This document shows, piece after piece, positions 7,626 through 38,195 of a stretch of DNA of 64,000 nucleotides (positions are counted from its first letter, which is position 1; every line of letters starts with the position of its first letter). This DNA comes from Desulfobotulus pelophilus (lineage in GTDB: Bacteria > Desulfobacterota > Desulfobacteria > Desulfobacterales > ASO4-4). A model generated the notes under the pieces. The model saw nothing but the letters and a program-made list of their open reading frames with translations, had not been told where the DNA came from and searched no databases. The position numbers and the translations under genes are program-made. Location of the stretch: the NCBI RefSeq assembly GCF_026155325.1, contig NZ_JAPFPW010000002.1, positions 62,001 through 126,000 on the forward strand, in the 5' to 3' direction.

Positions 7626-8390
7626 TCAGGAGGAAGCGCGCATCAGTTCTTCTGCCAGCTCCATATAACTTTGGGCTCCCTTGGATGCGGGGGCATAAAT
7701 AAAAATGGACTGCCCGAAACTGGGGGCTTCACCCAGGCGGACATTTCTAGGGATGCGGGTTTTAAAAATCAGATCTTTGAAATACTGTTCGGCATCTTCG
7801 GCCACCTGGGTGGAAAGATTGGTCCTTCCGTCAAACATGGTGAGAAGAATACCGGCAATACGAAGATGGGTATTAAGGCTTTTTTTAATGCGCTTGACGG
7901 TCTGCAGAAGTTGCCCCAATCCTTCCAGGGCATAGAATTCGCTCTGCAGGGGGATGAGTACGGAATCCGCTGCTGTAAAAGCATTCAGGGTAAGCAGGCT
8001 CAGAGATGGTGGGCAGTCCAGCAGAATATAGTCATAGCGGTTCTGCAGGGGGGCCAGTATGCGGTAAAGAAGCTTTTCTCTCTCCGGAGCTCCCATCATT
8101 TCCACTTCAAATCCGATGAGCTCAACCCTTGAGGGAAGGATGTGCAGGCCTTCTATTTCACAGTTGCAGATCAGATCTTCAACTCTGGCCTCACCAATGA
8201 GAGCATGGTAAAGTGTCTGTCCGAGGCTGGATTTGTCCAGACCGATGCCTGTGGTGGCATTAGCCTGGGGATCGCAGTCCACAAGAAGAATTTTTTTGGC
8301 AGAGAGGGCCAGAGCCGCAGCAAGGTTAATGGCTGTGGTGGTTTTACCCACTCCCCCTTTCTGGTTGGCGATGCAGATGATCTGTGTCAT
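7626..8390 (-). CDS. parA: Chromosome-partitioning ATPase ParA (Soj)
   Basis: This 254-residue deviant-Walker ATPase has the KGGVGKTT P-loop near its N-terminus (MTQIICIANQKGGVGKTT), the Walker A' segment DCDPQANAT and the Walker B-like DYILLDCPPSLS. ParA dimerises on ATP binding, coats the nucleoid and is stimulated by ParB. The frame is open for 49 more codons upstream, but the canonical ParA N-terminus begins at the ATG at 8390, with GAGG upstream. Length and motif spacing fit the short chromosomal Soj class without an N-terminal helix-turn-helix. It is divergent from the M48 protease gene. Confidence 0.95.
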   Translation of the reverse strand: MTQIICIANQKGGVGKTTTAINLAAALALSAKKILLVDCDPQANATTGIGLDKSSLGQTLYHALIGEARVEDLICNCEIEGLHILPSRVELIGFEVEMMGAPEREKLLYRILAPLQNRYDYILLDCPPSLSLLTLNAFTAADSVLIPLQSEFYALEGLGQLLQTVKRIKKSLNTHLRIAGILLTMFDGRTNLSTQVAEDAEQYFKDLIFKTRIPRNVRLGEAPSFGQSIFIYAPASKGAQSYMELAEELMRASS

Positions 8391-8561
8391 AACAAGTTTG
8401 CCTCTACCATAGTTCCGGTGAATTGCAAAGCAAAGGATTCCGGTAAAGAGGGGGAGGTCGGAATCCGTGGCTGATCCGGTCATCAAATTGTCTGCAGAGC
8501 CGGTAGTTTTAAGTTCTGCCGTTTCCCAGTAGGCCACACGCCAAGAAGGAAAGGACGATTC

Positions 8562-12039: not shown

Positions 12040-12596
12040 CGTACAATCATCATATTAGCGGTAAGAGGATGCCGGATATCGATATGCCCGGCCAGTGTGT
12101 CCTGTTCCTGGCCGGCGATGAGAATTTTCACCTTTCGGATTTCCGGTACGTTCAGTACAAGTGAATTGACCAGTGCATAAATTGTGTGCAGTTCTCCGTG
12201 GCTTCCACCAGGATGCTTTTCCCGGATGTCCGGATGGAAATCGAGGATGATCATGTCGTTTTCCATGTAGAGGGCCAGAAGCCTCGTCCCATCGGGTATG
12301 GGGGATACTCCGTTGCCGGATGGGCCTGTTATGAGTGCTTCCAGTATGGTCCTGGCCCTTTCCCGTGCATTCCCTGCCAGTGGAATTTCCCGTGTTTCTG
12401 CAGAAAGGAACTCCGATGCGGGATTGACAAAATAAAGATAAATGCTTTCCCTGTGGGGCCGGCCGCTTTCCGGAGGCAGCGGATGACCGGTGACGGAAGG
12501 TTCCGGCCCGGGGGCTGAAATCCGTATCCCGGCCCAGAAGGCAGTGGCAACGAGCACAATGCCAATGACAAGGACAGGGATGGGGGAAAGTTTCAT
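12036..12596 (-). CDS. GerMN-domain membrane-anchored protein
   Basis: The 186-residue protein begins with an uncleaved-looking hydrophobic segment ([19 protein letters not shown]), followed by a proline-rich stretch. Residues about 60-180 form a GerMN domain ([85 protein letters not shown]). GerMN is found in spore germination GerM and in many envelope lipoproteins of non-sporulating bacteria. Its biochemical role is unknown. The ATG at 12596 has GGAG five bases upstream, and the frame continues 50 codons further back. The last codons overlap the EF-G gene by four bases, an unexpected pairing. Confidence 0.8.
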
Positions 12597-13154
12597 GGTT
12601 TCTCCATGGAAGGTCTGTATGGATATGGGACTGTATAGTGTTATGTCAGCAGGATTCCGTACCGGGTGACACTCTGTCAAACATCCAAAGATACGGTGAA
12701 GTGGGCGGAGTGTCAACAGGCAGGGCGGATCCTTTTTCTCTGTCATCGGGACTTCGGAGGCTGAAATCCTTTTTGTTTTTATTGATAGGGTCAGACACTT
12801 GACCTTTGGACGCTGTATGGCAAAAAAGAAACTGTGTGGTCTGATGGAGGTCTGTTTTTTTCCGGGGGCATATCCTGCAGGGTTTTTTAGAAAAAGAATG
12901 GTGAAACGGGCTAAAAAACAGGGAATGATGGTTGTCTTTTTTTTTCAAACATGGTTACATGCCCACACTTTTATTAAAATAAGGATAACAATAGAAAAAA
13001 GTTTCGTGTAATCCACACTTGTCTGCTAAGGAATTGGGGATGAAAAGGAGCTGGGTGTTATAAGGCGGGCATCGTTTCGGTATTGTCGGGGAGGCAATGC
13101 TCCTTATAATAAAGGCGGCCATAGCCGGACACAAAAGACCATGGGGCGGGGACC
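12597..13154. other. 558-base intergenic region between divergent GerMN and PanP genes
   Basis: This region lies between divergently transcribed genes and should contain promoters on both strands. It has AT-rich tracts around 12885-13010. Short open frames here lack family motifs and ribosome sites, so I call none of them a gene. Confidence 0.4.
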
Positions 13155-14813
13155 ATGCGACAGGGATTGGGCTTTGAAGCACCTTCCGTAAGGAACGGTG
13201 AATGGGAGCAGATGCTCAGGCTGTTTATTCAGCCGGACACCGAGGCTGACCGGGCGAAGCTGGTCGGCTATATGGAGCAGATTTTATTCGGACTGCAGGA
13301 GTTTCTGCATAAGCACGTGGGGGTTACCGAGGAAATAGGTCTGAAAGAGCTGGCTCTGGGATACATGGACAGCAGCATTTGTTTTGATCCGGAAAAAAAG
13401 CTGCCGGAAGTGATATCGGACATCATAGATCGTATAGCACCTCAGGCTGTCAATGTCTCTTCTCCCTATTTTGTGGGTCACATGACATCGGCTATTCCTT
13501 TTTTTATGGTGCTTTTTAAGGCTATTGTGGCAGCTCTGAACCAGAATGTGGTGAAGCTGGAAACCTCCAAGGTTGTTTCCATTGTGGAACGGCAGGTGGT
13601 GGCGAGGTTGCATCGTCTGGTTTATGGGATGGACGCCTCCTTTTACGAAAAGCATGTCCAGAGTACGGATGCAACCCTCGGAACGTTCACGGAAGGGGGG
13701 ACGGCTGCCAATCTTACGGCTCTGTGGGTGGCCAGAAATACACTTCTGGCTCCGAAAGAAGGTTTTGAAGGTGTTGAGGCGGAGGGGCTGGCATCGGCTT
13801 ACAGAGCCTACGATATTGATCGGTGCGTGATTCTGGTATCCCGCAGGGGCCATTATTCCCTTCGGAAAGCCGTGGGTGTACTGGGTCTTGGGAATAAAAG
13901 TCTTGTAACCATAGACGTTGACGGAGAAAACCGTATATGTCTTCCGGCTTTACGCAGAAAGATAGCGGAATACAGTGCGGATCCTAAAATCCGCATTCTT
14001 GCGGTGGTGGGGATTGCCGGTGCTACAGAAACCGGCACGGTGGATCCTTTGCGTAAAATGGGAGAGATCTGCAGGGAGGCGGGCATACACTTTCATGTGG
14101 ATGCCGCCTGGGGCGGGCCCACCCTGATGAGTGACCGGTACCGTCATCTTCTGGATGGTATTGAACTGGCCGATTCTGTCACCATAGATGGACATAAGCA
14201 GTTTTATATGCCCATGACCTGCGGTATGGTGTACTTCAGGAACCCTTTTCATCTGGATACTATCAGTTACCATGCCAATTATATTATCCGCAGGGGTTCC
14301 GTGGATCTTGGTATCAAGACCCTGTCCGGTACCCGGGAAGCCAATTCTCTGGTCCTGGATTCTGCTCTCAAAGTGATGGGGCGCAAGGGCTATGGCATGC
14401 TGATTGACCATGGCATTGATCTGGCCAGAAAATTTGCGGAAGAAATACGCAAGAGGGAGAACTTCCAGCTTGTTACAGTCCCGGAGTTGAATATTCTGAC
14501 CTATCGTTTCTGCCCGACTCACCTTAAGGAGGCGCTGTTGCGCTCTTCCGGTTCAGAGCGCAGCGAACTAAATGAAAAAATAAACGATATCAACATTACC
14601 ATTCAGAGGGTACAGCGGGAGGCAGGCAGGAGCTTTGTTTCAAGGACTTCCATTGATAAGGGAGTGCCCGGTGGCGGGGAAACGGTTGTGCTGCGTGCGG
14701 TACTCATGAATCCCCTGACTACTCTGGGCATTTTGAACGATATTCTGGATGAGCAGGAAGTCATCTATCGGGATAACTATCGGGAAATGGATATCCGGGT
14801 ACAGGGTCTGTGA
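13155..14813 (+). CDS. panP: PLP-dependent aspartate 1-decarboxylase family protein (PanP-like)
   Basis: The 552-residue protein is a fold-type I group II decarboxylase related to glutamate and tyrosine decarboxylases. Visible features are FTEGGTAANLTALWVARN near residue 180, HVDAAWGG (the PLP aspartate) and SVTIDGHKQFYMPMTCG with the Schiff-base lysine in DGHKQ. Segments such as RRGHYSLRKAVGVLG, VVGIAGATETGTVDPL and the length match the PanP group, which replaces pyruvoyl-dependent PanD to make beta-alanine for pantothenate and CoA. A glutamate or other amino-acid decarboxylase remains possible. It is a single gene upstream of lepA, with 152 bases between. No pan genes are in view. Confidence 0.75.
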   Translation: MRQGLGFEAPSVRNGEWEQMLRLFIQPDTEADRAKLVGYMEQILFGLQEFLHKHVGVTEEIGLKELALGYMDSSICFDPEKKLPEVISDIIDRIAPQAVNVSSPYFVGHMTSAIPFFMVLFKAIVAALNQNVVKLETSKVVSIVERQVVARLHRLVYGMDASFYEKHVQSTDATLGTFTEGGTAANLTALWVARNTLLAPKEGFEGVEAEGLASAYRAYDIDRCVILVSRRGHYSLRKAVGVLGLGNKSLVTIDVDGENRICLPALRRKIAEYSADPKIRILAVVGIAGATETGTVDPLRKMGEICREAGIHFHVDAAWGGPTLMSDRYRHLLDGIELADSVTIDGHKQFYMPMTCGMVYFRNPFHLDTISYHANYIIRRGSVDLGIKTLSGTREANSLVLDSALKVMGRKGYGMLIDHGIDLARKFAEEIRKRENFQLVTVPELNILTYRFCPTHLKEALLRSSGSERSELNEKINDINITIQRVQREAGRSFVSRTSIDKGVPGGGETVVLRAVLMNPLTTLGILNDILDEQEVIYRDNYREMDIRVQGL

Positions 14814-14965
14814 ATTGACAGCTGGCCCTGCATTCGGTACAAGCTGTGGTAAATTAAAAAAGCGGATCGCCGTTTTTCGGCTGACCGTTTTTTTATGGGG
14901 TAATATTTTTTTGATGTGCGAGCTGCATACCGCTAAGACAGTTTTTTATAAGGTGCCGGTAATCC

Positions 14966-16759
14966 ATGAAGAATATTCGAAATTTCAGCATTATAGCCCA
15001 CATTGATCACGGAAAGTCCACGCTTTCCGATCGTCTTATTCAATCTACGGGGATCATTGCAGACCGGGATTTTCATGATCAGATTCTGGACTCCATGGAT
15101 ATTGAACGGGAGCGAGGCATTACCATTAAGAGTCAGACTGTTTGTCTCCCTTACAGGGCTTCTGACGGTAAAGAATATTCTCTGAACCTCATCGATACTC
15201 CGGGCCATGTGGATTTTACCTATGAAGTTTCCCGTGCTTTGGCGTCCTGTGAAGGGGCGCTGCTGCTGGTAGATGCCACCCAGGGTGTGGAGGCCCAGAC
15301 CTTGGCAAATCTCTATCTGGCCATGGAACACAATCTTGTCATTATTCCTGTAATCAACAAAATCGACCTTCCCAGTGCGAACGTGGAGTGGGTAAAAGAG
15401 CAGATTGCCGATGACCTTGGGCTTGATCCCTTTGATGCTGTATTGACCTCAGCCAAAGAAGGTATGGGTATTGACGAGCTGCTGGAAGTCATAGTGACAA
15501 AATTGCCGCCACCTGCAGGAGACCCCGAAGCTCCGTTAAAGGCCAGAATTTTTGACTCCCACTATGATCCGTACCGGGGTACTGTCGTGCACATGCGCAT
15601 TGTGGACGGGGCCATTAAGGCTGGTGATGAAATACGCTTCATGAGTAACAATGCCGTATACAGGGTTGAGGAGGTAGGGCTTTTTCAGATTATCCGTAAT
15701 CCTCAGAAAACTCTGAAGGCGGGGCAGGTCGGGTATATGATTGCCGGAATTAAAACAGTCAGCGATACCCGGTGCGGGGATACGGTTACCCATCATAAAA
15801 AACCTTGTACCAGGGCTTTCGGAGGATTTCATGAAGCCAAGCCTGTGGTTTTTTCTTCCCTGTACCCTGTGGCTTCGGATGATTATGAAGAGCTGGCAAC
15901 GGCCATAGAAAAGCTCAAATTAAATGATGCGGCTCTGATGTATGAGAAGGATAGTTCCGCAGCCTTGGGGTTTGGTTTCCGGTGCGGTTTTCTGGGGATG
16001 CTGCATCTTGAGGTCGTGCAGGAAAGACTTGAAAGGGAGTTTGATCTTTCCCTTATTATAACGGCTCCATCTGTCAGTTATCACCTGGAGCTGATGGATG
16101 GGGAATCCCTTGTGGTGGATAATCCAGCCCTTTACCCTGATCCTACCCTGATTCAAAGCGTGAAAGAACCTTTTATCAAAGCTAATATTATTGTTCCCGA
16201 GCGGTATATGGGTGCTGTGATGAAGCTTTGCATGGAACGTCGGGGGATCAACCGAAACTACCAGTATCTGACTTCCAGCCGTTTGGAAATGATTTTTGAG
16301 CTTCCCCTCGGTGAGGTGGTGTATGATTTTTATGATAAGCTGAAGAGTATTACTCAAGGATATGGTTCCTTTGATTATGATATGCTGGAACATAGAGAAA
16401 CCAATCTCGTTAAGCTGGATATTCTTGTGAATGGTGAAAAGGTGGATGCCCTTGCTCAGCTGGTGCATAAAGATAAGGCTGAGGCCAGAGGCCGCATGGC
16501 TTGCGAACGCTTACGGGAAGAAATTCCACGGCAGCAGTTTAAAATACCCATTCAGGCAGCCATAGGGGGCAAGATTGTTGCCAGAGAAACCATTTCTGCT
16601 TTCCGTAAGGATGTCACGGCTAAATGTTATGGCGGTGACATTAGTCGAAAGCGTAAGCTTTTGGAAAAACAGAAAAAAGGTAAGAAGAGAATGAAGATGG
16701 TCGGGCAGGTGGAAATTCCACAGTCAGCCTTTCTTTCTGTTCTGAAAACAGGAGACTGA
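14966..16759 (+). CDS. lepA: Elongation factor 4 (LepA), ribosome back-translocase GTPase
   Basis: The 597-residue GTPase begins [25 protein letters not shown], the diagnostic LepA N-terminus. It has DTPGHVDF and NKIDLPSA as further G motifs. The C-terminal unique domain ([24 protein letters not shown]) is complete. LepA lacks EF-G domain IV and modulates translation initiation or back-translocation. It is commonly co-transcribed with lepB, but here the next gene is an ABC transporter cluster 342 bases away. It is the third translational GTPase of the EF-G superfamily in this window. Confidence 0.97.
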
Positions 16760-17101
16760 GGTGGCGGAAGAATGGTTTCTGGGTGCTGTGAGCAGTATGA
16801 TATAAAAAAAGGCTATTCTTTGTTGGAAGGCCGGAGTGACATGCTTTTGTCTTGTTCGACTTGTCGTTTCTGGCCGGGAAGACTGTAAAAAGGACATGAG
16901 TTCCTGTACCATTCTTGGTTGGGGATATTGTGATCTCTGGTTTGTGTGCTGTTTTAAAAAAAGACTTTTTTCGGGGGCTTGGAAAAAAACTTGTCAAAGC
17001 ACCCTCATTTCGATAGATGCTTTTTGTCATGGATTCAGGATACTTATTTTCCGGCCAAATGGTCTGACCCTTTGGTCATAAAAAACGTCAGGGAGTGTGT
17101 G
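16760..17101 (+). other. Intergenic region upstream of the ABC transporter genes
   Basis: These 342 bases separate lepA from the substrate-binding protein gene. An inverted repeat TGACC-N4-GGTCA (17065-17078) sits about 25 bases before the start codon, where an operator could lie. A weak promoter-like pair (TTGTCA at about 16992, TAGATG 17 bases later) is present. No gene is evident. Confidence 0.3.
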
Positions 17102-17884
17102 ATGAAAAAGATTATGATGGCTGTTTTTTGCGTAATGGCAATGGTCTTAACGGCCCATGCGGACAATTCATGGGAGCGGGTGCAGAAAGCTGGAAAGCTT
17201 ATGATCGGCCTGGATGACGCTTTTGCTCCAATGGGGTATCGTCTTGAGGACGGAACGCTTGTGGGCTTTGATGTGGATGCTGCCGAAGCCCTTGGAGAGC
17301 GTATGGGGATTGCCATTGAATGGCATCCCACGGCATGGGATGGTGTGATTCACTCTTTGAATTCCGGCAAGTTTGACTGTATCTGGAATGGTATGACCAT
17401 TACCCCGACACGGGCGGAGCAGGTCAATTTCACGGAACCTTATATTATGGACGGGCAGGTTGTGGTGGTGCGTTTCAATGAAACCCGTTTTGCCTCTTAT
17501 GAAGATCTGGGAGGCATGGTGGTTGGTCTTCAGAAGGGATCCAGTGCTTTGAATGCTCTTCAGGCTCTTCCTGAAGCCCCAAGGGATGTGAGAGAATATG
17601 CGGATAATCCCAAGGCTCTTCTTGATCTTGAAAGCGGACGTCTGGATGCGGTGATCATTGATAATGTCGTGGGAAGGGATGCGATTTCCAAGCGTATCGG
17701 AAGATACAAAGTCCTGCCCGGCTTCATAACCAAGGAACCCTTTGGTGTGGCGTTCCGTAAGGCGGAACACAGCCTGCGGAACCGGGTGCAGGCAGAGTTG
17801 GATGCCATGGTGGCTGATGGAACGCTTGGCCTGATTTCTGAAAAGTGGTTTGGTGAGAATATTGTAGACAAAGCATCCTGGTAA
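17102..17884 (+). CDS. Polar amino-acid ABC transporter, periplasmic substrate-binding protein
   Basis: The 260-residue product has a cleavable signal peptide (MKKIMMAVFCVMAMVLTAHA). The mature protein is a family 3 solute-binding protein: KLMIGLDDAFAPMGYRLEDGTLVGFDVDAAEALGERMG, WDGVIHSLNSGKFDCIWNGMTITPTRAEQVNFTEPY and KEPFGVAFRK. This family binds cationic or polar amino acids (GlnH, HisJ, ArtJ). The ligand cannot be fixed from sequence. I use the ATG at 17102, which starts the signal peptide. It is the first gene of an SBP-permease-ATPase operon, followed by a strong hairpin (17913-17946) before the permease gene. Confidence 0.92.
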   Translation: MKKIMMAVFCVMAMVLTAHADNSWERVQKAGKLMIGLDDAFAPMGYRLEDGTLVGFDVDAAEALGERMGIAIEWHPTAWDGVIHSLNSGKFDCIWNGMTITPTRAEQVNFTEPYIMDGQVVVVRFNETRFASYEDLGGMVVGLQKGSSALNALQALPEAPRDVREYADNPKALLDLESGRLDAVIIDNVVGRDAISKRIGRYKVLPGFITKEPFGVAFRKAEHSLRNRVQAELDAMVADGTLGLISEKWFGENIVDKASW

Positions 17885-27953: not shown

Positions 27954-28293
27954 TGTCTGCTTTTTATCAATAATCTGGCGTCCGCATATTTTTCCCCTCC
28001 GCATTGTACTGTACGTTTGTCGGTAGCGTTTTTTCAAAAAATATTCCCTGTATTCCAGTGCGTCCTTAGCAAAATTCAGAATAAATCATCGGTACTTCCG
28101 GAATTCACAGAACTGGTGGCCATGGGGTTTTGGTCGGCATGAGGCCGTTCATTGCTTTGTGATCAGCGTGGAAGGAAGTCTGTCTGCCTGTGTTTATTTT
28201 GTTATGAAGTATTTTATAAAATATTTTATAAAATACTTGACCCTGTAATTCCTTTCTGCAAAGGTGAAAGAAAAAAATGCAAAGGCTTGATTG
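27954..28293 (+). other. Control region upstream of the catabolic cluster
   Basis: The 340 bases after the rhomboid gene carry no gene. They end in the AT-rich palindrome at 28207-28238 and the start of the HpsN-like gene. A candidate -35 TTGTTA (28199-28204) and -10 TATTTT (28222-28227), 17 bases apart, overlap the palindrome. Confidence 0.45.
28207..28238. promoter_or_regulatory. 32-bp perfect palindrome, probable operator of the catabolic cluster
   Basis: The sequence reads identically on both strands over 32 bases. It consists of two overlapping copies of the self-complementary 14-mer TATTTTATAAAATA, at 28210-28223 and 28222-28235, with a 12-base period. It lies 55 bases before the first structural gene and overlaps a candidate promoter. 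The GntR-family regulator at the far end of the cluster is the obvious candidate ligand. A purely structural or terminator role is less likely, since there is no GC stem. Confidence 0.6.
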
Positions 28294-29643
28294 ATGAAAC
28301 ATGAATCAAAAATAAAAAAGGAGATTGGTGTGGAATACATAAAAAAAGCCTGTCTGTCAGCGGAGGGAAACAGCCTTGAAAAACGAAAGCTTGTGGAGAA
28401 AATCCTAAGTGATATCGAAGAGCGTGGAGAGGAAGCTGTAGCAGAACTTGCAAGGAAGTTTGATAACTGGGAAGGGCCTTTTGTTCTTTCCGATGAAAAA
28501 AAACAAAAACTGATTGAATCCGTACCGCAAAGGGTGAAAGACGATATCCGTTTTGCCTATGAGCAGGTGGCGGGTTTTGCCGTGGCACAGCGTGAAAGTC
28601 TGAAGGAGTTTGAGCTGGAGACGTTTCCCGGTGTGATTCTCGGGCAGAAGGTAATCCCCATGGATGTGGCGGGTTGCTATATCCCCGGAGGCCGATTTGC
28701 CCATGCCTGCTCTGCTTTAATGAGTGTGGCAACTGCCAAGGCTGCCGGAGTGAAAACTGTCATAGCCTGTTCTCCTCCCCGAGGTGGCGGTATTGATCCT
28801 GCCGTATGCTATGCCATGGATATAGCCGGGGCGGATATGATTCTTGAAATGGGCGGGGTTCAGGCCATCGCCAGTATGGCATACGGACTTTTTACGGGAA
28901 AGCCTGCCAATATTATTGTTGGTCCTGGTAATGCCTTTGTGGCCGAAGCCAAGGCTATTTTGGCCGGATCCGGGCGCTGTGCCATAGATGTTTTTGCCGG
29001 CCCCACGGAGTCCGGAGTCATCGCGGATAAGACCGCAGACCCCATGACAGTGGCTGTGGATCTCGTGTCCCAGGCCGAACATGGCTACGACTCTCCCGTC
29101 TGGCTTTTCACGGATTCAAGGGAGCTTGCAGAGACAGTTCTGGAAATTATGCCAAGAGTCATAGCGGATCTCACAACACCGGAGGTTGCGGAGGCAGCAT
29201 GGAGGGATTACGGAGAAATTATTCTGTGCGAAAGCCGGGAAGAACTTTGCCAGGTAAATGACCGCTATGCTCCGGAGCATATTCAGGTTATCGCAGACGA
29301 TCTGGATTGGTGGAGGGATCATCTGAAAAGCTATGGGTCCATGTTCCTTGGGGAAGGAGCCACCGTAGCCCATGGCGATAAATGTTCCGGTACCAATCAT
29401 ATTTTGCCTACAAAAAAAGCAGGTTATAATTCCGGCGGACTCAATGTTCACAAGTTTTTAAAGATTTATACCTATCAGAATATATCCGTTGAAGCCAACA
29501 GGGTGTTTTCTGCCGCTGCATCCCGACTTTCCCGGGTGGAGGGAATGGAAGGGCATGCCAGAGCCTGTGACTGGAGGCTGAAAAAGTTTTTCCCTGAAGA
29601 AAAATGGGATTTTGAGGTGTACGAACAGAAGCGTTATTGCTGA
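28294..29643 (+). CDS. HisD-family dehydrogenase, HpsN-like (sulfopropanediol/amino-alcohol dehydrogenase)
   Basis: The 449-residue enzyme belongs to the histidinol-dehydrogenase family: zinc- and NAD-dependent four-electron oxidation of a primary alcohol to a carboxylate. All metal and catalytic landmarks are present: SQAEHG (Gln and His ligands), YAPEHIQ (catalytic Glu-His), HGDKCSGTNHILPT (Asp ligand) and EGMEGHARA (His ligand). The pattern VAGCYIPGGRFAHACSALMSVATAKAAGVKT and the lack of other his genes argue for the HpsN subgroup (2,3-dihydroxypropane-1-sulfonate to sulfolactate) rather than true HisD. Cysteinolate, an amino alcohol like histidinol, is another plausible substrate. The ATG at 28294 has AAAGG upstream. 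It is the first gene of the cluster. Confidence 0.85.
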   Translation: MKHESKIKKEIGVEYIKKACLSAEGNSLEKRKLVEKILSDIEERGEEAVAELARKFDNWEGPFVLSDEKKQKLIESVPQRVKDDIRFAYEQVAGFAVAQRESLKEFELETFPGVILGQKVIPMDVAGCYIPGGRFAHACSALMSVATAKAAGVKTVIACSPPRGGGIDPAVCYAMDIAGADMILEMGGVQAIASMAYGLFTGKPANIIVGPGNAFVAEAKAILAGSGRCAIDVFAGPTESGVIADKTADPMTVAVDLVSQAEHGYDSPVWLFTDSRELAETVLEIMPRVIADLTTPEVAEAAWRDYGEIILCESREELCQVNDRYAPEHIQVIADDLDWWRDHLKSYGSMFLGEGATVAHGDKCSGTNHILPTKKAGYNSGGLNVHKFLKIYTYQNISVEANRVFSAAASRLSRVEGMEGHARACDWRLKKFFPEEKWDFEVYEQKRYC

Positions 29644-29741: not shown

Positions 29742-30947
29742 ATGGCGCAGCAATGCTTTAGCAAAAGTTTTACCAGACAGGAGCCCATTCCTGAGCATGC
29801 CATTGAGCGGGCCATATCGGTATTACGGTCGGGGAAATTGCATCGCTATAACGTGGAAGTTGGAGAGGCAGGGGAAGTTTCCGAACTGGAAACAGAATTT
29901 GCTTCCTACATAGGGAAAAGATATTGCCTGGCCTGTGCATCATGCGGCAGTGCCATGTATCTTGCCCTTAAATCCGCCGGGGTTCAAAGGGGCGACAAGG
30001 TTCTGTGCAATGCCTACACACTGGCACCCGTTCCCGGAGCCATAGAAAATGCTGGTGCAGATATTGAGCTGGTTGAAATTTGCGAAGATTATACCATTGA
30101 TATTCGTGATCTGGATCGTAAGGCAGCGGCGGGCAATGCAAAGTGGCTTCTGCTGTCTCATATGCGCGGACATATGGCAGACATGGATAAAATTCAAAGA
30201 GTCTGTGAGCGGCACGGGCTTTTTTTGATCGAAGATTGTGCCCATACCATGGGCGCGGAGTGGGATGGCAGAAAGTCGGGTAGTTTTGGACAGGTAAGCT
30301 GTTTTTCGACCCAGACCTATAAACATATGAATTCTGGAGAAGGGGGCTTTCTTGTCACCGATGATGAAGAGCTCATGGCCCGGGCTATCCTCCATTCCGG
30401 CTCGTACATGCTGTATGACCGCCATGTCGCCCGCCCGGATCTGGAAGTCTTTGATCCCATAAAGAAAAGAATTCCGAACTATTCCTGTCGTATGGATAAC
30501 CTGAGAGCTGCCATTCTCCGACCTCAGCTACAGATGCTTACAAGACAGTGTCAGCGTTGGAATGAGCGCTATCGCCTGCTGGAAGCGGCCATCCATTCTA
30601 TAGAAGGTCTCTGGTGTCCACCCCGTGATCCCCGCGAGAATTATGTTGGCAGCTCCATCCAGTTTTCTGTCTGTCATGGTGACAGTGAGAGTATACGACT
30701 GTTTCTGGAAAAATGCCGTGAACGTGGTGTTGAGCTCAAGTGGTTCGGGAGTCCGGAACCCGCTGGTTTTACAAGTGCATATCAGAGCTGGGAATATTTT
30801 GGCAATCTTCCGGACCTGCCTAATACGAATCGTATTCTTAAACGTATGTGCGATATGCGCATTCCGCTGACCTTTACACTGGATGACTGTCGGGTGATTG
30901 CGGAAATTCTTCGTGATGTTGCAACAGATATTTTACAGTCGGATTGA
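29742..30947 (+). CDS. DegT/DnrJ/EryC1/StrS family PLP-dependent aminotransferase
   Basis: The 401-residue protein is a fold-type I aminotransferase. It has the substrate-sensing GSAMYLALKSAGVQRGDKV region, the PLP aspartate in IEDCAHTMGA (D165) and the Schiff-base lysine in QTYKHMNSGEGG (K194). Family members usually transaminate a keto or aldehyde carbon of sugars or cyclitols with Glu or Gln as donor. Here there are no sugar-nucleotide genes around it, so a small catabolic substrate is likelier. It may interconvert a keto (or hydroxy-keto) sulfonate and the amino form, but that is inference. GGAGGGG precedes the ATG. It lies 98 bases after the dehydrogenase gene. Confidence 0.85.
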   Translation: MAQQCFSKSFTRQEPIPEHAIERAISVLRSGKLHRYNVEVGEAGEVSELETEFASYIGKRYCLACASCGSAMYLALKSAGVQRGDKVLCNAYTLAPVPGAIENAGADIELVEICEDYTIDIRDLDRKAAAGNAKWLLLSHMRGHMADMDKIQRVCERHGLFLIEDCAHTMGAEWDGRKSGSFGQVSCFSTQTYKHMNSGEGGFLVTDDEELMARAILHSGSYMLYDRHVARPDLEVFDPIKKRIPNYSCRMDNLRAAILRPQLQMLTRQCQRWNERYRLLEAAIHSIEGLWCPPRDPRENYVGSSIQFSVCHGDSESIRLFLEKCRERGVELKWFGSPEPAGFTSAYQSWEYFGNLPDLPNTNRILKRMCDMRIPLTFTLDDCRVIAEILRDVATDILQSD

Positions 30948-31051: not shown

Positions 31052-32050
31052 ATGATGAAGCGGATGGTGGTAGCCCTATGTTTACTTTCTGCCGTTATAT
31101 TCACTGCAGTTCCTGCAGCTCTGGCTCAGACCGTCATGAGAATGGGTATGGGAGATGCTATTGACTCGGATCAGGGAGCCTTTTCCATACGGTTTAAGGA
31201 AGCCGTAGAAAGTCTTTCCGGGGGTAAAATACGGATAGAGCTTTTCCCGAATGGCTCCCTTGGCTCGGAAACGGAGATGCTGCAGAATACTCGCAGGGGG
31301 ACACTTGACCTTGCCACAATTGGTGTGGGAAATGCTGTTCCCTTTGTTCCCGACCTTGGCGTGTTAACCATGCCTTATCTTCTGGAGTCCCACTATGACG
31401 CCATTAAGGCGACAACGGGTGGACTGGGGCAGCAGTGGAATGAGAGATCCATTGCAAAGGGTGGTTTCCGGATTCTTGGCTGGACCTATTCCAACTTTCG
31501 CTTTGTGACCAATTCCAGGCGACCTGTGCGAAAACTTGAGGATATCAAGGGAATGAAGATCCGGGTTCCCCACAACAATATTATTCTGGCTACGTTTCGG
31601 GCATGGGGTGCCAATCCCGTTCCCATGGATTGGGCTGAAACATTCACAGCTTTGCAGCAGAAGGTTGTAGATGGTCAGGAAAATCCCTACATCGTGAACT
31701 ATACAACCAAATTCCATGAGGTTCAGGATTATCTCACGGAAGTTCATTACCAGTACTCACTGCAGCCTCTGATGATTGGTGAGCGGAAATGGAAAACCCT
31801 GGATAAGGAAACTCAGGATATTCTGATCCGGGCAGGAATGGAAGCACAGCAGTATGCCATTGCCTACCAGATTCTGGAGGCGGAAAAAGCCAAAAAAGGT
31901 ATGCAGGATGCGGGAGTTGAAATTTGCTATCTGGAAGATGAGGAACAATGGAAACAGCTGGCCAGAGAAAAGGTTTGGCCTGAATTCTATGACTTTATCG
32001 GCGGGCGGCAGAATCTGGATATGGTGATGCAAAGTCTTGGTAAGAAATAG
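31052..32050 (+). CDS. dctP: TRAP transporter substrate-binding protein (DctP family)
   Basis: The 332-residue protein has a signal peptide (MMKRMVVALCLLSAVIFTAVPAALA) and a DctP-type solute-binding fold. Features are GAFSIRFKEAVESLSGGKIRIELFPNGSLGSETEML, LDLATIGVGNAVPFVPDLGVLTMPYL and the conserved region FRFVTNSRRPVRKLEDIKGMKIRVP, whose arginine (in KIRVP) clamps an acidic group of the ligand. That arginine implies an acid substrate, such as a carboxylate or sulfonate. The gene starts after AGGAGGG. It is followed by a hairpin and then the two membrane subunits, giving a complete tripartite sodium-driven importer. Confidence 0.93.
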   Translation: MMKRMVVALCLLSAVIFTAVPAALAQTVMRMGMGDAIDSDQGAFSIRFKEAVESLSGGKIRIELFPNGSLGSETEMLQNTRRGTLDLATIGVGNAVPFVPDLGVLTMPYLLESHYDAIKATTGGLGQQWNERSIAKGGFRILGWTYSNFRFVTNSRRPVRKLEDIKGMKIRVPHNNIILATFRAWGANPVPMDWAETFTALQQKVVDGQENPYIVNYTTKFHEVQDYLTEVHYQYSLQPLMIGERKWKTLDKETQDILIRAGMEAQQYAIAYQILEAEKAKKGMQDAGVEICYLEDEEQWKQLAREKVWPEFYDFIGGRQNLDMVMQSLGKK

Positions 32051-32063
32051 CTGGCAAAGAAAG

Positions 32064-32094
32064 CATACCGGGCGAGCTGTTCTCACCCGGTATG
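32064..32094 (+). other. Stem-loop between dctP and dctQ
   Basis: CATACCGGG (32064-32072) pairs with CCCGGTATG (32086-32094), and three further pairs lie inside the loop. No T-run follows. As in other binding-protein operons it probably raises the yield of DctP relative to the membrane subunits. Confidence 0.6.
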
Positions 32095-32113
32095 TCTGAG
32101 AAAGGGCTACGAC

Positions 32114-32653
32114 ATGAAAGCAAAACGCGCCCTGCAATATATTGATAAGTTTGAGAGTTATGTCTGTCAGGTTTTGTTGGGTTTTTTCGTTGTTGTTCTT
32201 TTTATGCAGATTGCTCTCAGGATTTGTTTTAACTACGTTATCCCGTGGAGTGAAGAAATATCCCGTTTTTCTTTTGTCTGGTTTGTTTTTTTTGGTGCTG
32301 CCTATGCAGCCCGTCTGGCAGCCCATAACCGGGTGACAATTCAGTTTAAACTCTTCCCTCCGGTTGTAGGAAATATCTGTATGTTCCTATCGGATATTAT
32401 ATGGATCGGCTTCAATCTGCTTATGATCTGGAAAAGCCTGGAAGTGATTACAGACCTGATGGAGTTTCCGTATATTTCTCCTTCCCTTGGCTGGTCAATG
32501 GCCTATGTGTACTGGATTTTTCCCATCAGTTTCAGTCTCATGAGCGTAAGGATAATTCAGGTTAATATCATGAAATACTGGCTTAAGATTGAAATAAAGG
32601 ATGTGGATAAAATTGACCCTGACGACCTTGAACCTTTACCGGAATCCCATTAG
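32114..32653 (+). CDS. dctQ: TRAP transporter small membrane subunit (DctQ family)
   Basis: The 179-residue protein has four predicted membrane helices (YVCQVLLGFFVVVLFMQIALRI, FVWFVFFGAAYAARLAAH and two more). The DctQ signature WSEEISRFSFVWFVFFGAAYAAR is present, with PWSEE before helix 2. DctQ bridges DctM and scaffolds docking of the loaded binding protein. The C-terminus is a short acidic tail. A gap of 16 bases separates it from dctM. Confidence 0.92.
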   Translation: MKAKRALQYIDKFESYVCQVLLGFFVVVLFMQIALRICFNYVIPWSEEISRFSFVWFVFFGAAYAARLAAHNRVTIQFKLFPPVVGNICMFLSDIIWIGFNLLMIWKSLEVITDLMEFPYISPSLGWSMAYVYWIFPISFSLMSVRIIQVNIMKYWLKIEIKDVDKIDPDDLEPLPESH

Positions 32654-32669
32654 GGAAGGAGGCGGAAGT

Positions 32670-33953
32670 ATGTCTGCTGCTGGCGTATTGTTCGGTTGCT
32701 TCGCCCTTCTTCTGCTTATGGGGGCTCCCATAACCGTGGCCCTGGGTGCAGCGGCCATGGCTGCTTTCATGGTGGTGGGACAGGATCTGTCCACAATGGT
32801 GCAGATTGCCTTTTCATCGGTGAACTCATTTCCCATAATGGCACTGCCTGCTTTTGTTCTTGCCGGTGCTTTAATGGAGGTTGCCGGGATTTCAAGGAGA
32901 CTGGTGAAGGTTGCCGAATCCATGGTTGGTACGGTTGATGGGGGGCTTGCCATTTCCACAACACTGGCCTGTGTGTTTTTCGGGGCCATATCCGGTTCCG
33001 GTCCGGCTACAACCGCTGCCGTAGGAATGCTGATGATCCCGGCCATGATCAGAAGAGGTTATGACCCCGGATATGCTTCCGCGGCTACGGCCAGTTCCGG
33101 AGGTATCGGAATCATTATCCCGCCCAGTATTCCCATGGTAATCTATGGGGTTGTCGCCCAGGAATCCATTACAAAAATGTTTGTCGCTGGGGTTGTTCCC
33201 GGTTTATTGATTTCTGCCGGTCTCATTGTGGTTCATCTTCTGCGTTGCCGGGGGAAGAACTTGAGCCAGGGAATGGTACCATGGTCCGCATCCGGGTTGC
33301 TCTGTTCCCTGCGGGAAGGATTCTGGGCCGTTCTAGCACCGGTTATTATTCTGGGAGGAATCTATACGGGTTTTTTTACTCCTACGGAAGCCGCCATTGT
33401 TGCCATTTTTTATACGCTGATCATAGGAATTTTTGTTTATAAGGAAATTTCTCTCAAGGGGCTGATGAAATCCCTTGAAACCACCTCATGGCTTACCGGC
33501 AGGGTTCTGGTGATCATGTTTACCGCCTTTGCCTTCGGCAGGTTGCTGGTTCAGTACCAGATACCCGATATGATAGCGCAATGGCTTCTTGAAATTACAA
33601 GTAATCCCCATCTTATCTGGGCGATGGTTATTTTTTTCCTTCTTTTTCTCGGCATGTTCATGGAAACCCTTGCCATAATTATGCTGGTCACACCGGTACT
33701 TTTGCCGATCATGGTGGCCATCGGAGTGGATCCTATCCATTTTGGGGTGGTTCTTGTCTGCTGCTGTGGTGTGGGTTTTTCAACTCCGCCCCTTGGCGAG
33801 AATATGTTTATTGCTTCGGGTATTGGCGGTGTAACCCTTGAAGAGATTTCTCTGAAAGCTCTTCCTTTTTGTTTTGTCACCATCGGTGTCATTTTTTTGA
33901 TGGCTTATGTCCCCGGATTGATTCTCTGGTTGCCGGAGCTGTTCGGGTACTGA
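32670..33953 (+). CDS. dctM: TRAP transporter large permease subunit (DctM family)
   Basis: The 427-residue transport subunit has about 12 membrane segments and DctM landmarks: GAPITVALGAAAM, FVLAGALMEVAGISRRLV, SGSGPATTAAVGMLMIPAM, ASSGGIGIIIPPSIPMVIYG and FTPTEAAIVA. It forms the sodium-coupled channel of the TRAP system with DctQ. AAGGAGG lies seven bases before the ATG at 32670. The frame is open upstream into dctQ, but the ribosome site and the usual N-terminus place the start here. Confidence 0.94.
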   Translation: MSAAGVLFGCFALLLLMGAPITVALGAAAMAAFMVVGQDLSTMVQIAFSSVNSFPIMALPAFVLAGALMEVAGISRRLVKVAESMVGTVDGGLAISTTLACVFFGAISGSGPATTAAVGMLMIPAMIRRGYDPGYASAATASSGGIGIIIPPSIPMVIYGVVAQESITKMFVAGVVPGLLISAGLIVVHLLRCRGKNLSQGMVPWSASGLLCSLREGFWAVLAPVIILGGIYTGFFTPTEAAIVAIFYTLIIGIFVYKEISLKGLMKSLETTSWLTGRVLVIMFTAFAFGRLLVQYQIPDMIAQWLLEITSNPHLIWAMVIFFLLFLGMFMETLAIIMLVTPVLLPIMVAIGVDPIHFGVVLVCCCGVGFSTPPLGENMFIASGIGGVTLEEISLKALPFCFVTIGVIFLMAYVPGLILWLPELFGY

Positions 33954-34014: not shown

Positions 34015-34395
34015 ATGAAAAAAGAAAGTGTTTGTACGGCAAAGGCACCTGCAGCAATCGGTCCCTATTCTCAGGCTGTAAAGTCCGGTGGTTTTCTTTT
34101 TACCTCGGGTCAGCTTCCCATAGATCCGGTAACAGGCAATATACCGGAAGGAGATATCAAAGTGCATACCCATCAGGTGTTAAAAAATCTGAAGGCAATT
34201 GCTGAGGCAGCAGGGACGGATCTTTCATCTGTTGTGAAAGCTACCGTATACCTTAGCAGCATGAAAGATTTTGCATTGGTAAATGAAGTATATGCTGAAT
34301 ATTTTACGGAACCGTTTCCCGCCAGGAGTGCTTTTCAGGTTGCACAGCTGCCTCTGGGTGCCTCTGTGGAAGTGGAAGCTGTTTTTGAACTCTGA
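34015..34395 (+). CDS. ridA: RidA family 2-iminobutanoate/2-iminopropanoate deaminase
   Basis: The 126-residue YjgF/YER057c/UK114 protein hydrolyses reactive enamine/imine intermediates such as 2-aminoacrylate from PLP-dependent eliminations. Key residues are in place: Y18 (GPYSQAV), R104 (PARSAFQVAQLPLGA) and E121. AAGGAG lies upstream of the ATG. The next gene encodes a PLP lyase whose reaction would release 2-aminoacrylate, so RidA probably detoxifies and speeds the lyase step. An intrinsic terminator follows directly. Confidence 0.93.
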   Translation: MKKESVCTAKAPAAIGPYSQAVKSGGFLFTSGQLPIDPVTGNIPEGDIKVHTHQVLKNLKAIAEAAGTDLSSVVKATVYLSSMKDFALVNEVYAEYFTEPFPARSAFQVAQLPLGASVEVEAVFEL

Positions 34396-34473: not shown

Positions 34474-35475
34474 ATGAATTTTACCCAATTCCCCCGCAGG
34501 AAATATCTGCAAGGTGCAACCCCCATCGAGCCCATGGCAAATCTATCCAAAGCCCTTGGGGGGAATGTGGATCTTTATGTTAAAAGAGATGACCTTTTGC
34601 CTGGGTCGGCAGGGGGGAACAAAACCCGTAAACTTGAATTCTGTTTTGCTGATGCCCTTGAAAAAAAAGCAGACACCGTCGTTACATGCGGTGCTGTTCA
34701 GTCCAATCACTGCCGCCTCACTGCTTCATGGGCCGTCAAGGAAAACATGGACTGTCATCTGGTTCTGGAAGAACGGGTAAAAGGTTCGTACAAGCCTGAA
34801 GGATCGGGCAATAATTTTTTGTTTGAGCTGCTGGGTGTGAAATCCGTCCGCGTGGTTCCGGCGGGTTCGGACATGATGGCAGAAATGGAAAAAACTGCGG
34901 CAGAGCTGAGAAATGCTGGTAAACAGCCCTACATTATTCCCGGAGGTGCTTCCAATGCCATTGGTGCCCTTGGGTATGCCAGCTGTGCTCAGGAAACTAT
35001 GGTGCAGCTGAATGAGATGATGCTGAAGATTGACAGCATTGTTGTTCCGTCCGGTTCCGCCGGAACCCATGCGGGTATGGCAGTTGGCATGTTTGCCATG
35101 AATACCCATATTCCTGTTCTCGGTATGAATGTGTCCAGAAAAAAAGATGTTCAGGAAGGGATTGTTTATAAACTGGCCGGAGAGCTGGTAACAAAACTGG
35201 GTGTTAAAACAGAGATCCCACGAGACCATATTACCTGTTTTGACGAATATGTGGGGCCGGGCTACTCTCTCCCCACCGGAGATATGATTGAAGCTGTAAA
35301 ACTTTTTGCCGGTACGGAAAGCATTCTTCTGGATCCTGTTTATTCAGGAAAAGCGGCAGCTGGTCTCATCGATCTGGTCCGTAAAGGATACTTCCCTAAA
35401 GGAAGCCGGGTCCTTTTTCTGCATACCGGAGGTTCGCCTGCTCTGTATGCCTATCTTGATACATTCAGGGCATAG
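34474..35475 (+). CDS. PLP-dependent lyase of the D-cysteine desulfhydrase/CuyA (L-cysteate sulfo-lyase) family
   Basis: The 333-residue protein is a fold-type II PLP enzyme with the family motif PGSAGGNKTRKLEF (PLP lysine K50), VTCGAVQSNHCRLTA, YIIPGGASNAIGALGYASCAQE and GSAGTHAGMAVG, plus the C-terminal LLDPVYSGKAAAGLIDL and FLHTGG. Relatives are D-cysteine desulfhydrase (DcyD), ACC deaminase and CuyA, which splits L-cysteate to pyruvate, ammonia and sulfite. The flanking RidA, the HpsN-like enzyme and the acid-type TRAP importer favour a CuyA-like role, but sequence alone cannot separate CuyA from DcyD. GAGGA precedes the ATG. Terminators stand on both sides of the gene. Confidence 0.8.
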   Translation: MNFTQFPRRKYLQGATPIEPMANLSKALGGNVDLYVKRDDLLPGSAGGNKTRKLEFCFADALEKKADTVVTCGAVQSNHCRLTASWAVKENMDCHLVLEERVKGSYKPEGSGNNFLFELLGVKSVRVVPAGSDMMAEMEKTAAELRNAGKQPYIIPGGASNAIGALGYASCAQETMVQLNEMMLKIDSIVVPSGSAGTHAGMAVGMFAMNTHIPVLGMNVSRKKDVQEGIVYKLAGELVTKLGVKTEIPRDHITCFDEYVGPGYSLPTGDMIEAVKLFAGTESILLDPVYSGKAAAGLIDLVRKGYFPKGSRVLFLHTGGSPALYAYLDTFRA

Positions 35476-35591: not shown

Positions 35592-36320
35592 ATGCAATGC
35601 GGAAAAGAAAAAGTGGTGGGCATTCTGGGTGGAATGGGGCCTGCTGCAACGGTTGATCTGATGAAAAGGGTGATTGACCTTACCCCTGCCGTGGATGATG
35701 CGGATCATATCCGGATGATTGTGGATAATAATCCAGGAGTACCGTCCAGAATGAAGGCATTGCTGGACGGTACGGGAGAGAGTCCTGGTCCATGCATGGC
35801 AGAAATGGCCAGAAGGCTTGCGTCATGGGGCGCAGATTTTCTTGTCATACCCTGTAATACGGCGCATTTTTATTATGATGATGTCCGAAATGCCGTATCT
35901 GCGCCAGTGGTTCATCTTGTGGATCTTACAGCTTCCGTTGTTGCCGAAAGGCTGCCGGAACACATGAAGGCAGGTATTATGGCTTCCACGGCAGTTGTAA
36001 ATACCGGGCTTTATGATAAAGCTTTCATGCCATATGGTGTTCCTTTGCTATATCCTTGCCCTGCAGATCAGGAAAGACTTCTGGATGTGATTCGTTCTGT
36101 GAAGGCTGGAGATAGGGGATGGGATATACGGAACAGTTTTCTTGCCATTGCAGCAAGTCTTGTGAAGGAAGGAGCTGGAATATTGATTATAGCCTGTACG
36201 GAACTGGGAGTTATCGGAGAGGAGTTGGGAGCAGAATTCGTTGATACAACAGATGTCCTGGCTTCCCACATTGTTTCTGTCGTGAAAAAGGGAGCCCTTC
36301 CTTTTGAAAAGATGCGTTGA
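35592..36320 (+). CDS. Aspartate/glutamate racemase family protein
   Basis: The 242-residue protein has the fold of PLP-independent amino-acid racemases. The N-terminal VGILGGMGPAATVDL is characteristic, and both catalytic cysteines are present in IPCNTAH (C88) and IACTELG (C202). The family racemises Asp, Glu or broader acidic amino acids by two-base chemistry. Cysteate is the sulfonate analogue of aspartate. The gene sits next to a cysteate-lyase candidate, so D/L-cysteate interconversion is an attractive role. An ordinary aspartate racemase remains possible. Confidence 0.85.
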   Translation: MQCGKEKVVGILGGMGPAATVDLMKRVIDLTPAVDDADHIRMIVDNNPGVPSRMKALLDGTGESPGPCMAEMARRLASWGADFLVIPCNTAHFYYDDVRNAVSAPVVHLVDLTASVVAERLPEHMKAGIMASTAVVNTGLYDKAFMPYGVPLLYPCPADQERLLDVIRSVKAGDRGWDIRNSFLAIAASLVKEGAGILIIACTELGVIGEELGAEFVDTTDVLASHIVSVVKKGALPFEKMR

Positions 36321-36430
36321 ACATGCCGGGCTTCTTTGTTCGCTATGGATCGTATCATGATGCAAGGCTGATGCAGTCAGTTGCAAGGTCAGAAGAAGCT
36401 TTTTTGATTTGGTTTTATGCGGAGTGTTGG

Positions 36431-37366
36431 ATGATGGAAAAAAAATCGGTTCCTGTTTTTTCAGCCCGTATGGGTTTGGTGTATTCTGTTGGATCAGCAG
36501 CGGCCTATGCAATGCTTCCGGTTTTTACGCGCATGTCTTTGGCCAGCGGCATGAGCAGTCTTGAAATCATGCAGTTGCGTTATGGTTTTGGAGTTGCCAT
36601 GGTATTTCTTTATCTTGCCATTTGCAGCCCGGAGTCCTTGAAAATAAGTCCGAAGGGTCTTTTTATTGCATTTGTCTTGTCCTTCGGACTGGACCAGATC
36701 ACCAGTCTGAACCTTGCCAGGTGTTTTGAAACGTTGACAGCGTCAACCGGGATTCTTATTTTTTACATATTTCCTGCCATCACGACAGTACTTTCCGTTC
36801 TGATTTATAAAACCCCGGTCAGTAGGAAAACCATTACGTCGATGGTGCTGGTGGCAGGGGGGTGCTGTCTTGTTCTGGTTCAGGCATTTTCCCATAAGGT
36901 TGCGCTGTCGGGCGTATTGTATGTACTCTCCGCCGCTTTTACCTTTGCCCTCAGCTTTGTTGTACTGCAGCGTGTCATGGAGAAGATACCTCCTCTGACC
37001 ATTACATTTTACGTAATGCTTTTCACCACCGTGGGGTTTAATTTTGTAAAGGGTGACATAACCTTCTTGTTTTATCTGGATTCCTATCAGTTTCTGATGG
37101 GGCTTCTGCTGGGTCTGATTCCAACAGCCCTGGGAGTTACCCTTCTTTATCTGGCCATCAGCGTGACGGATTCTGGTTTTGCTGCCCTGTGTTCGTCAAT
37201 AGAACCTGCTGTTACCGTGCTGGCAGCCTATCTGTTGCTGAGCGAACCGATTCTGATCGTTCAGGTTGCAGGAATGCTGATTGTGATGCTGGGAATATTT
37301 ATTAAGTACCTGGACTCCAATCATCCTGCGGATTCTGCGGCAGCCAGCCTGCCAAAATGCGTTTAG
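36431..37366 (+). CDS. EamA/DMT-superfamily transporter
   Basis: The 311-residue membrane protein shows ten predicted helices in two EamA repeats: MGLVYSVGSAAAYAMLPVFTRMSLA and SLEIMQLRYGFGVAMVFLYLAI in the first half, and LSGVLYVLSAAFTFALSFVVLQRV and GFAALCSSIEPAVTVLAAYLLLSEPI in the second. EamA proteins often export metabolites or amino acids. Within this cluster it could export an end product or move the substrate; the direction is unknown. The ATG at 36431 has GGAG six bases upstream. The frame is open from 36317, but that extra N-terminus is not membrane-like. Confidence 0.85.
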   Translation: MMEKKSVPVFSARMGLVYSVGSAAAYAMLPVFTRMSLASGMSSLEIMQLRYGFGVAMVFLYLAICSPESLKISPKGLFIAFVLSFGLDQITSLNLARCFETLTASTGILIFYIFPAITTVLSVLIYKTPVSRKTITSMVLVAGGCCLVLVQAFSHKVALSGVLYVLSAAFTFALSFVVLQRVMEKIPPLTITFYVMLFTTVGFNFVKGDITFLFYLDSYQFLMGLLLGLIPTALGVTLLYLAISVTDSGFAALCSSIEPAVTVLAAYLLLSEPILIVQVAGMLIVMLGIFIKYLDSNHPADSAAASLPKCV

Positions 37367-37559
37367 GCCAGAAGGGTGGGGTTTCTGGAACAGACGAGCG
37401 ATGGACTATCCAAAGCTCATCGGTCAGCAGAACGGCACATGGAGAAGGAAGTACGGGCAACTTAACTCATGATAGAGGGTGGCTGGCAGCTTCCCATGGA
37501 CGTTGTGCGAGCTTATCAAAATGGTAAGGAGTGTGCATTTGAAAACTGGTGAAGGCTCA

Positions 37560-38195
37560 ATGAAATCCCTCATAGCCTATGATAAAATCAAGGAGCTCAT
37601 ACTTTCAGGAAGAAAATATCCGGGAACAAGGCTTGTTTTAGCGGAACTCGAGACGGAGCTTGGAATCGGACGCGGACCAATCCGGGAAGCTCTTATGCGG
37701 CTTGATCGTTCGGGGCTGGTACGGAATGTACCTTATAAAGGAGCCATCGTAGCTCCTTTGCCTAAAAAAAATGAAATGGATTATATTTTCAGTATTCGAG
37801 TTAAGCTTGAAGCTGAGCTGGCCAAGGCCGCTATGAAGAACCTTAGGGATGAGGATATGGAAGAGCTGGAGAAGACGTACCAAAAGATGCAATGCATGAC
37901 ACAGGAATTTTATAGTCTCGACCGTCACTTCCATGATGTTTTATATGAAGCATCCGACTATCCCCATCTCTGCCTGATTGCTCATAAGCTTGTTGAGTCT
38001 GTGGAAGCTTTTTTAAACCTGTTTCAGCATGATGAGAATGATTACAGAATATTTTTAGAAGAGCATGCCCTGATTCTGGAGTTTTTGAAAAAAGGTGATT
38101 CTGAAAAACTGCAGAAGGCAGTGGCTGACAATGTTAAGTCTGGAATGAGACGCATTGAGAAAGCCTATGCCTTGCTGATGAACAATCACGGTTGA
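37560..38195 (+). CDS. GntR family regulator, FadR/FCD subfamily
   Basis: The 211-residue protein has the GntR winged helix at residues about 1-70 (AYDKIKELILSGRKYPGTRLVLAELETELGIGRGPIREALMRLDRSGLV) and an all-helical FCD effector domain. Metal-ligand histidines appear in DRHFHDVLYEASDYP and EEHALILEFLKKGD. FCD regulators of sulfonate, sugar-acid and organic-acid pathways bind acidic ligands, often with zinc. Three starts are possible. The ATG at 37560 has GAAGG at four bases, and a TTG at 37539 has AAGGAG at seven. It probably controls the cluster upstream, possibly through the palindrome at 28207. Its stop overlaps the convergent pbpC stop by ten bases. Confidence 0.88.
   Translation: MKSLIAYDKIKELILSGRKYPGTRLVLAELETELGIGRGPIREALMRLDRSGLVRNVPYKGAIVAPLPKKNEMDYIFSIRVKLEAELAKAAMKNLRDEDMEELEKTYQKMQCMTQEFYSLDRHFHDVLYEASDYPHLCLIAHKLVESVEAFLNLFQHDENDYRIFLEEHALILEFLKKGDSEKLQKAVADNVKSGMRRIEKAYALLMNNHG

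Follow-up and report, generated by a model that had tools for sequence, protein, structure and literature searches.

What does a perfect 32-bp palindrome do in front of a gene cluster predicted to act on sulfonates in Desulfobotulus pelophilus? A first-pass annotation of the 64,000 nucleotides analysed here (contig NZ_JAPFPW010000002.1, positions 62,001 to 126,000; hereafter the window) had proposed that it is a repression site for the GntR/FCD regulator encoded at the end of the cluster.

The palindrome and the gene cluster behind it

The element, AAGTATTTTATAAAATATTTTATAAAATACTT (28207-28238), is identical to its own reverse complement, so that the perfect palindrome of two overlapping units described earlier is borne out. 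It consists of two head-to-tail 12-bp dyads, ATTTTATAAAAT, containing neither G nor C and flanked by AAGT and ACTT, and it reaches 36 bp if one mismatch is allowed. Its conserved part is the 24-bp core of ATTTTATAAAAT x 2 (28211-28234), the outermost bases being different in G002, a genome of the same genus. The period of 12 bp that had been noted is correct, but it is not one helical turn (10.5 bp), from which it departs by about 50 degrees more.

Symmetry of this extent had been called far beyond chance, and our controls agree. Only two other perfect palindromes in the window reach 16 bp or more, with lengths of 18 and 16 bp. The longest in 2000 dinucleotide shuffles of positions 27954-28330 was 20 bp (0/2000 reached 32 bp), and 20 shuffles of the full window gave at most 16 bp. 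The 14-mer at 28210-28223 and 28222-28235 accounts for two window matches with up to 2 mismatches, versus 0.12 expected. When the genome (3,656,775 bases, 86 contigs) was searched for it, as had been suggested, the 14-mer proved not to be frequent: exact copies occur only at these two overlapping places, with seven further places at one mismatch. A chance palindrome or A+T-rich repeat is rejected on the evidence of the shuffles and of this single exact place.

The features of the region are as follows.

28207-28238, no strand: perfect 32-bp palindrome, putative operator (symmetry check, shuffles)
28211-28222, no strand: 12-bp dyad ATTTTATAAAAT, upstream unit (sequence, promoter alignment)
28223-28234, no strand: 12-bp dyad ATTTTATAAAAT, unit on the -35 side (exact in 20 other aligned promoters, which were selected for containing the dyad)
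28237-28242, plus strand: TTGACC, likely -35 element, 2 bp after the array (placed by the relatives' promoters)
28330-29643, plus strand: hisD, histidinol-dehydrogenase-family gene, HpsN-like (GTG start, from the frame conserved in G002)
29742-30947, plus strand: DegT/DnrJ-family aminotransferase (profile match)
31055-33953, plus strand: TRAP transporter genes dctP (Pfam match), dctQ and dctM (position and sequence)
34015-34395, plus strand: RidA-family protein (profile match)
34474-35475, plus strand: CuyA, D-cysteate sulfo-lyase (519 bits, NCBI cut-off 450)
35592-36320, plus strand: CuyB, cysteate racemase (270 bits, NCBI cut-off 190)
36317-37366, plus strand: EamA-family transporter (profile match; start uncertain)
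37539-38195, plus strand: GntR/FCD regulator, proposed binder (TTG start proposed from AAGGAG ahead of it)

All cluster genes downstream of the palindrome are on the plus strand, and a reading frame on the same strand, resembling by eye a rhomboid protease, ends upstream at 27953. Among solved structures, the hisD product matches sulfopropanediol 3-dehydrogenases (E 4.9e-156) better than histidinol dehydrogenases (best E 6.9e-65). The cluster is predicted to serve C3 sulfonates. The regulator carries both domains of its class, PF00392 at 47.6 bits (cut-off 27) and PF07729 at 67.5 bits (cut-off 24.3).

A second, imperfect inverted repeat, TTGATTGATGAAACATGAATCAA (window 28287-28309; 10-bp arms, one mismatch, 3-bp loop), sits between the operator and the hisD start and is not evidently kept in G002. 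Elsewhere in the D. pelophilus genome, a second ridA-cuyA-cuyB locus without the operator (L037, G000 C3, 9125-11306) encodes a CuyA that is 57% identical, and no site with up to 3 mismatches to the 18-mer was found there. The same search of the genome gave four extra places, three inside long reading frames (L003, L004, L005) and one between frames (L006), none of them tied to sulfonate genes.

Recurrence of the array in related genomes

Of the 389 genomes searched in the order, 23 contain an ortholog of the regulator (E <=1e-35), and the stretch around each was read (our own window, L035 and L100-L120), an array being scored at up to 5 mismatches to the 24-mer in 400-bp windows at start regions. 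In position the array agrees with FadR-subfamily operators, which sit at promoters of the regulator's own catabolic cluster: it lies at the hisD or dctP promoter in 13 of the 15 with such a start region on the contig (hisD in 11, dctP only in 2). L107 has an array near gntR and none at the dctP start region, and L120 has only a single exact dyad, at the contig edge. Three more arrays lie beyond the 400-bp windows. Those of L111 and L119 precede dctP, whose protein alignment there begins late or is split, and the third, in L102, is about 950 bp ahead of hisD. In the remaining eight, contig ends truncate the stretch: L115, L117 and L118 have zero sites in the portion present on their contigs, L108 has a weak one with 5 mismatches at gntR, and in the genomes of L101, L103, L105 and L109 the dyad occurs at the promoter of hisD or dctP on a different contig. 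More than two dyads, partly degenerate, occur in L106, L107, L113 and L114, compared with two in the window. G002 keeps the cluster together with an identical 24-bp core, followed by CTTGACCCT as in the window; further upstream its DNA differs, with no alignable relation noted.

Shuffling 18 upstream regions 300 times each, with 11 regions of more than 7 mismatches (chiefly dctP inside an operon) left out, never matched the observed site in 14 regions and matched it once in 300 in another, whereas three regions failed the 1% level (12, 13 and 25 of 300). The phasing of the arrays, 21 at multiples of 12 versus 39 elsewhere, mostly at -10 and -22, is not counted as evidence; the latter offsets are put down to self-similarity of the dyad unit.

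Two genomes without the regulator ortholog are informative. A double dyad was not matched in G001, of the same genus, and no such site precedes hisD of G008, a genome with hisD, degT and cuyA and no ortholog at E 1e-35. As no regulator ortholog was found in G008, control may have been replaced there. Its hisD-degT-cuyA-cuyB genes are preceded by a different inverted repeat, of the CTTGGACTTGGACCAAGTCCAAG type (L036, 5775-5811), and by a gene resembling a corrinoid protein. As a separate observation, L119 (G341, 10447-17318) contains the regulator, CuyB, RidA, DegT and HisD, with dctP split into two alignments and no CuyA match within the 20-kb stretch.

Across the order, the pattern dyad-N2-3-TTGA has 55 matches in 49 of the 389 genomes, compared with 21 matches (counted from the table) for its reversed control. 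It is held by 17 of the 23 regulator genomes versus 32 of the 366 others (Fisher p 1.9e-12), with some of the matches in regulator genomes lying on contigs other than the regulator's and the one in G378 lying inside a long reading frame. Seventeen of the 55 are upstream of hisD (10) or dctP (7), with L104 and L119 supplying the placement of two of them. The gene context of 51 matches was computed; the other four comprise one repeated context and three places in earlier loci.

Double dyads with up to 2 mismatches occur at 17 places in 15 of the 389 genomes (the complete list), and 12 of these places are within 10 kb of an FCD gene; the frequency of such genes in ten genomes rich in them (139 FCD genes) gives an expectation of about 0.05 per place. 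At five places (G000, G002, G202, G334, G341) the double dyad lies at the hisD promoter and the regulator is encoded on that contig; these form one orthologous set, in which our own site started the search. Seven lie less than 10 kb from other FCD genes (G134, G191, G324, three in G116, G387), and the one in G200 is at hisD with the regulator on another contig. Counted by type, five FCD types, four besides that of the cluster, stand beside double dyads, versus four places without one. The reversed 24-mer has 18 matches by our own count, versus 17 for the pattern. Reversing the 24-mer yields the same array at a 6-bp offset, which is why it matches arrays: 11 of the 18 are in loci examined, on or near arrays (both of our own on the palindrome). 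The background of about 7 is comparable to the four or five unexplained places of the pattern.

One further locus, L127 (G119 C93, 6454-17341), contains between two hisD copies Pfam matches to MtmB and MTTB methyltransferases, as well as frames resembling, by eye, a corrinoid protein, a corrinoid activator and a UroD-type methyltransferase. Its dyad arrays are at 4005, 10726, 16441 and 17215, and its regulon may include demethylation of N-methylated sulfonates.

Since the array recurs at orthologous clusters, is associated with the ortholog and lies close to FCD genes, the GntR/FCD regulator of the cluster is quite probably the binder, as had been supposed. The absence of the site from G001 and G008 and the arrays at promoters of other FCD genes point the same way. 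With moderate confidence, judging from these sequence comparisons, we take the palindrome to be the operator of this regulator, most likely serving repression. We infer a mechanism in which each 12-bp dyad would be contacted by one dimer of the regulator; the tandem array stops 2 bp short of the likely -35 element from which hisD and the following genes would be transcribed, and the bound regulator would block RNA polymerase at -35 and just upstream. A compound of the sulfonate pathway, either substrate or intermediate, would then release it, with cysteate, cysteinolate or DHPS as candidates.

Position of the array and its alternatives

The sites had been described as overlapping a candidate promoter. 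The array does abut TTGACC; however, no good -10 is found 17 bp further on, where the hexamer is AAAGGT, and a scan of the window for sigma-70-like promoters found none on the plus strand. The G002 promoter likewise has a poor -10. We aligned 21 distinct promoters with the exact dyad, four of which (L153, L154, L146, L141) had been chosen by a TTGA-containing pattern. The last dyad is separated from a TTGACA-like hexamer (TTGCAT in two) by 2 bp in 15 of the 21 and by 3 bp in 2, and in three the gap is filled by two degenerate units; with the four pattern-picked rows removed, the 2-bp spacing holds in 11 of 17. In L111, the array begins 33 bp before the hisD start and no -35 follows it, and at the FCD genes of G134 and G116 it lies over the -10 of a TTGACA-N18-TATAAA promoter. 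These mixed positions would fit a repressor best, although activation at hisD is also possible.

Activation is indeed the alternative that survives best. The same regulator on the same operator would activate hisD and dctP from just upstream of -35, and repress its own gene where the array covers the promoter. FadR acts both as an activator and as a repressor, and the near-fixed distance to the -35-like hexamer (four of the 15 cases at 2 bp being TTGA-picked) and the poor -10 in both Desulfobotulus promoters are consistent with such a role. However, most of the -35 hexamers are near the consensus TTGACA, which would be unnecessary for class II activation, and neither the array of L111 nor those covering a -10 in G134 and G116 are placed for it. 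We regard activation as unlikely and repression as plausible.

Less likely still, and in our view rather improbable, is that another regulator, encoded elsewhere, uses the array as its operator and that the GntR/FCD gene just happens to be adjacent. The dyad has no GT...AC core although Arg45 is kept in the regulator, and this is a difficulty for the proposed binder because the contact between Arg45 and G is essential in Atu1419 (PMC7797058). Moreover, no GntR-type gene is present in the 20-kb stretch at 4 of the 17 double dyads: G244 (in a reading frame), G365 (beside yebC, by eye), G099 and G119 C93 (beside a methylamine methyltransferase gene). On the other hand, the array recurs beside five FCD types in otherwise unrelated gene sets, and the association with the ortholog across the 389 genomes also speaks against a binder from elsewhere.

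An A+T-rich UP element, contacted by the alpha subunit of RNA polymerase and not serving as a repressor or activator site, would account for an array directly upstream of -35, which is where UP elements sit. Yet this location is kept by 15 plus 2 of the 21 promoters and not by L111, where the array adjoins the start codon, or by G134 and G116; together with the perfect dyad symmetry, the 12-bp repeat, the single such place in the genome and the association with FCD genes, this makes the UP element very unlikely. Finally, a terminator of the upstream gene, or a chance A+T-rich repeat, is scarcely credible, as the RNA could fold into a 14-pair A-U hairpin (-11.5 kcal/mol, z -3.9) but the stem is without a G-C pair where an intrinsic terminator has a G+C-rich stem and a T run, no T run follows it, the terminator scan was negative, and the element is kept in G002 despite the differing DNA further upstream and is reached by none of the shuffles, so that a terminator or RNA hairpin is rejected.

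DNA recognition and known systems

If the regulator of the cluster does repress from this operator, how might it read a dyad made of A and T only? In FadR, Arg35 (position 28) and Arg45 (position 38) contact G, and the subfamily consensus has TKGT/ACMA boxes with a GT...AC core (PMC4494728), which the dyad ATTTTATAAAAT lacks. By eye, the 23 aligned orthologs have Ser or Ala at the position of FadR Arg35 and keep Arg45; a script check of 18 of the 23 gave 15 Ser and 3 Ala at the former and 18 Arg at the latter. In the remaining FCD types found next to double dyads, the Arg35 position is occupied by Asn, Asn, Gln and Gly. A wider residue survey covered 121 GntR helix-turn-helix stretches from 119 of 120 loci, some genes being counted twice in overlapping loci; for FCD genes it drew on 10 chosen genomes (90 of 139 matches) plus the cluster loci, two having too little upstream DNA. 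None of the 36 Arg-bearing stretches has a double dyad (up to 3 mismatches) in the upstream 250 bp, and by the same measure four non-Arg genes outside the cluster carry one, a small sample for statistics. The Arg-bearing FCD genes L268 and L274 have instead TTTAATCAAAGATTTGATCAAAT and ATTTGATTAAATATTTGATTGAAT, with the same 12-bp period and a G (ATTTGATCAAAT-like), this variant being clear at 2 of the 4 printed Arg-bearing genes of the group (not at L277 and L279). The few genes involved hint at a shared architecture with a one-residue switch.

More broadly, we tentatively propose, at somewhat less than even chances, that several FCD/GntR lineages of the order share a second code, in which a tandem (ATTTTATAAAAT)n read by adjacent dimers replaces the GT...AC core. 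If true, one code would serve sulfonate, UbiD-type decarboxylase, TRAP-linked and other catabolic operons. Should binding be confirmed, it would mean FCD/GntR recognition without the G contact held to be typical of the family, and a one-residue, one-base route to how specificity changed. The array also provides a concrete, searchable operator for cysteate and sulfonate breakdown, by which organosulfonate regulons may be read from genomes. As an observation in its own right, the regulator of L107 (G382, 7855-8499) has Ile for the backbone-contacting Arg49 (GPIIEAL), unlike the other aligned orthologs, and adjoins a four-unit array at its own gene.

A search of the open-access literature, judged from titles and abstract openings, brought up nothing on this operator, and the dyad 12-mers gave no match on this subject by title. 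Among described systems, the FadR/VanR-type (FCD) regulators have the same domains as ours, and their operators are likewise A+T-rich palindromes close to the promoter of a catabolic cluster to which the regulator gene belongs (PMC4494728, PMC7797058); they differ in the GT...AC boxes of their consensus, for which we find a 12-bp tandem (PMC4494728). BioR, a member of the FadR subfamily, resembles ours in having an operator outside that consensus, TTATMKATAA, but its sequence is another one, and the passages of PMC4494728 on it mention no tandem array. The nearest solved structure to the regulator, at about 59 bits only, is E. coli McbR/YncC, a VanR-type FCD regulator whose reported binding sites are AT-rich and carry an ATATAT motif; McbR, however, has very many sites in its genome (PMC13343897), in contrast to one array here. 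E. coli NanR, an FCD-type GntR regulator, places several dimers on a repeated (GGTATA)3 operator (PMC8012715), and two closely spaced dyads are likewise present here. The direct repeats of NanR have another sequence, however, and it requires an N-terminal extension of 32 residues (PMC8012715), whereas about 12 residues, counted from the proposed TTG start, precede the GntR domain of our regulator. What is new about the proposed operator is that it is a tandem of A/T-only dyads without the FadR-subfamily core.
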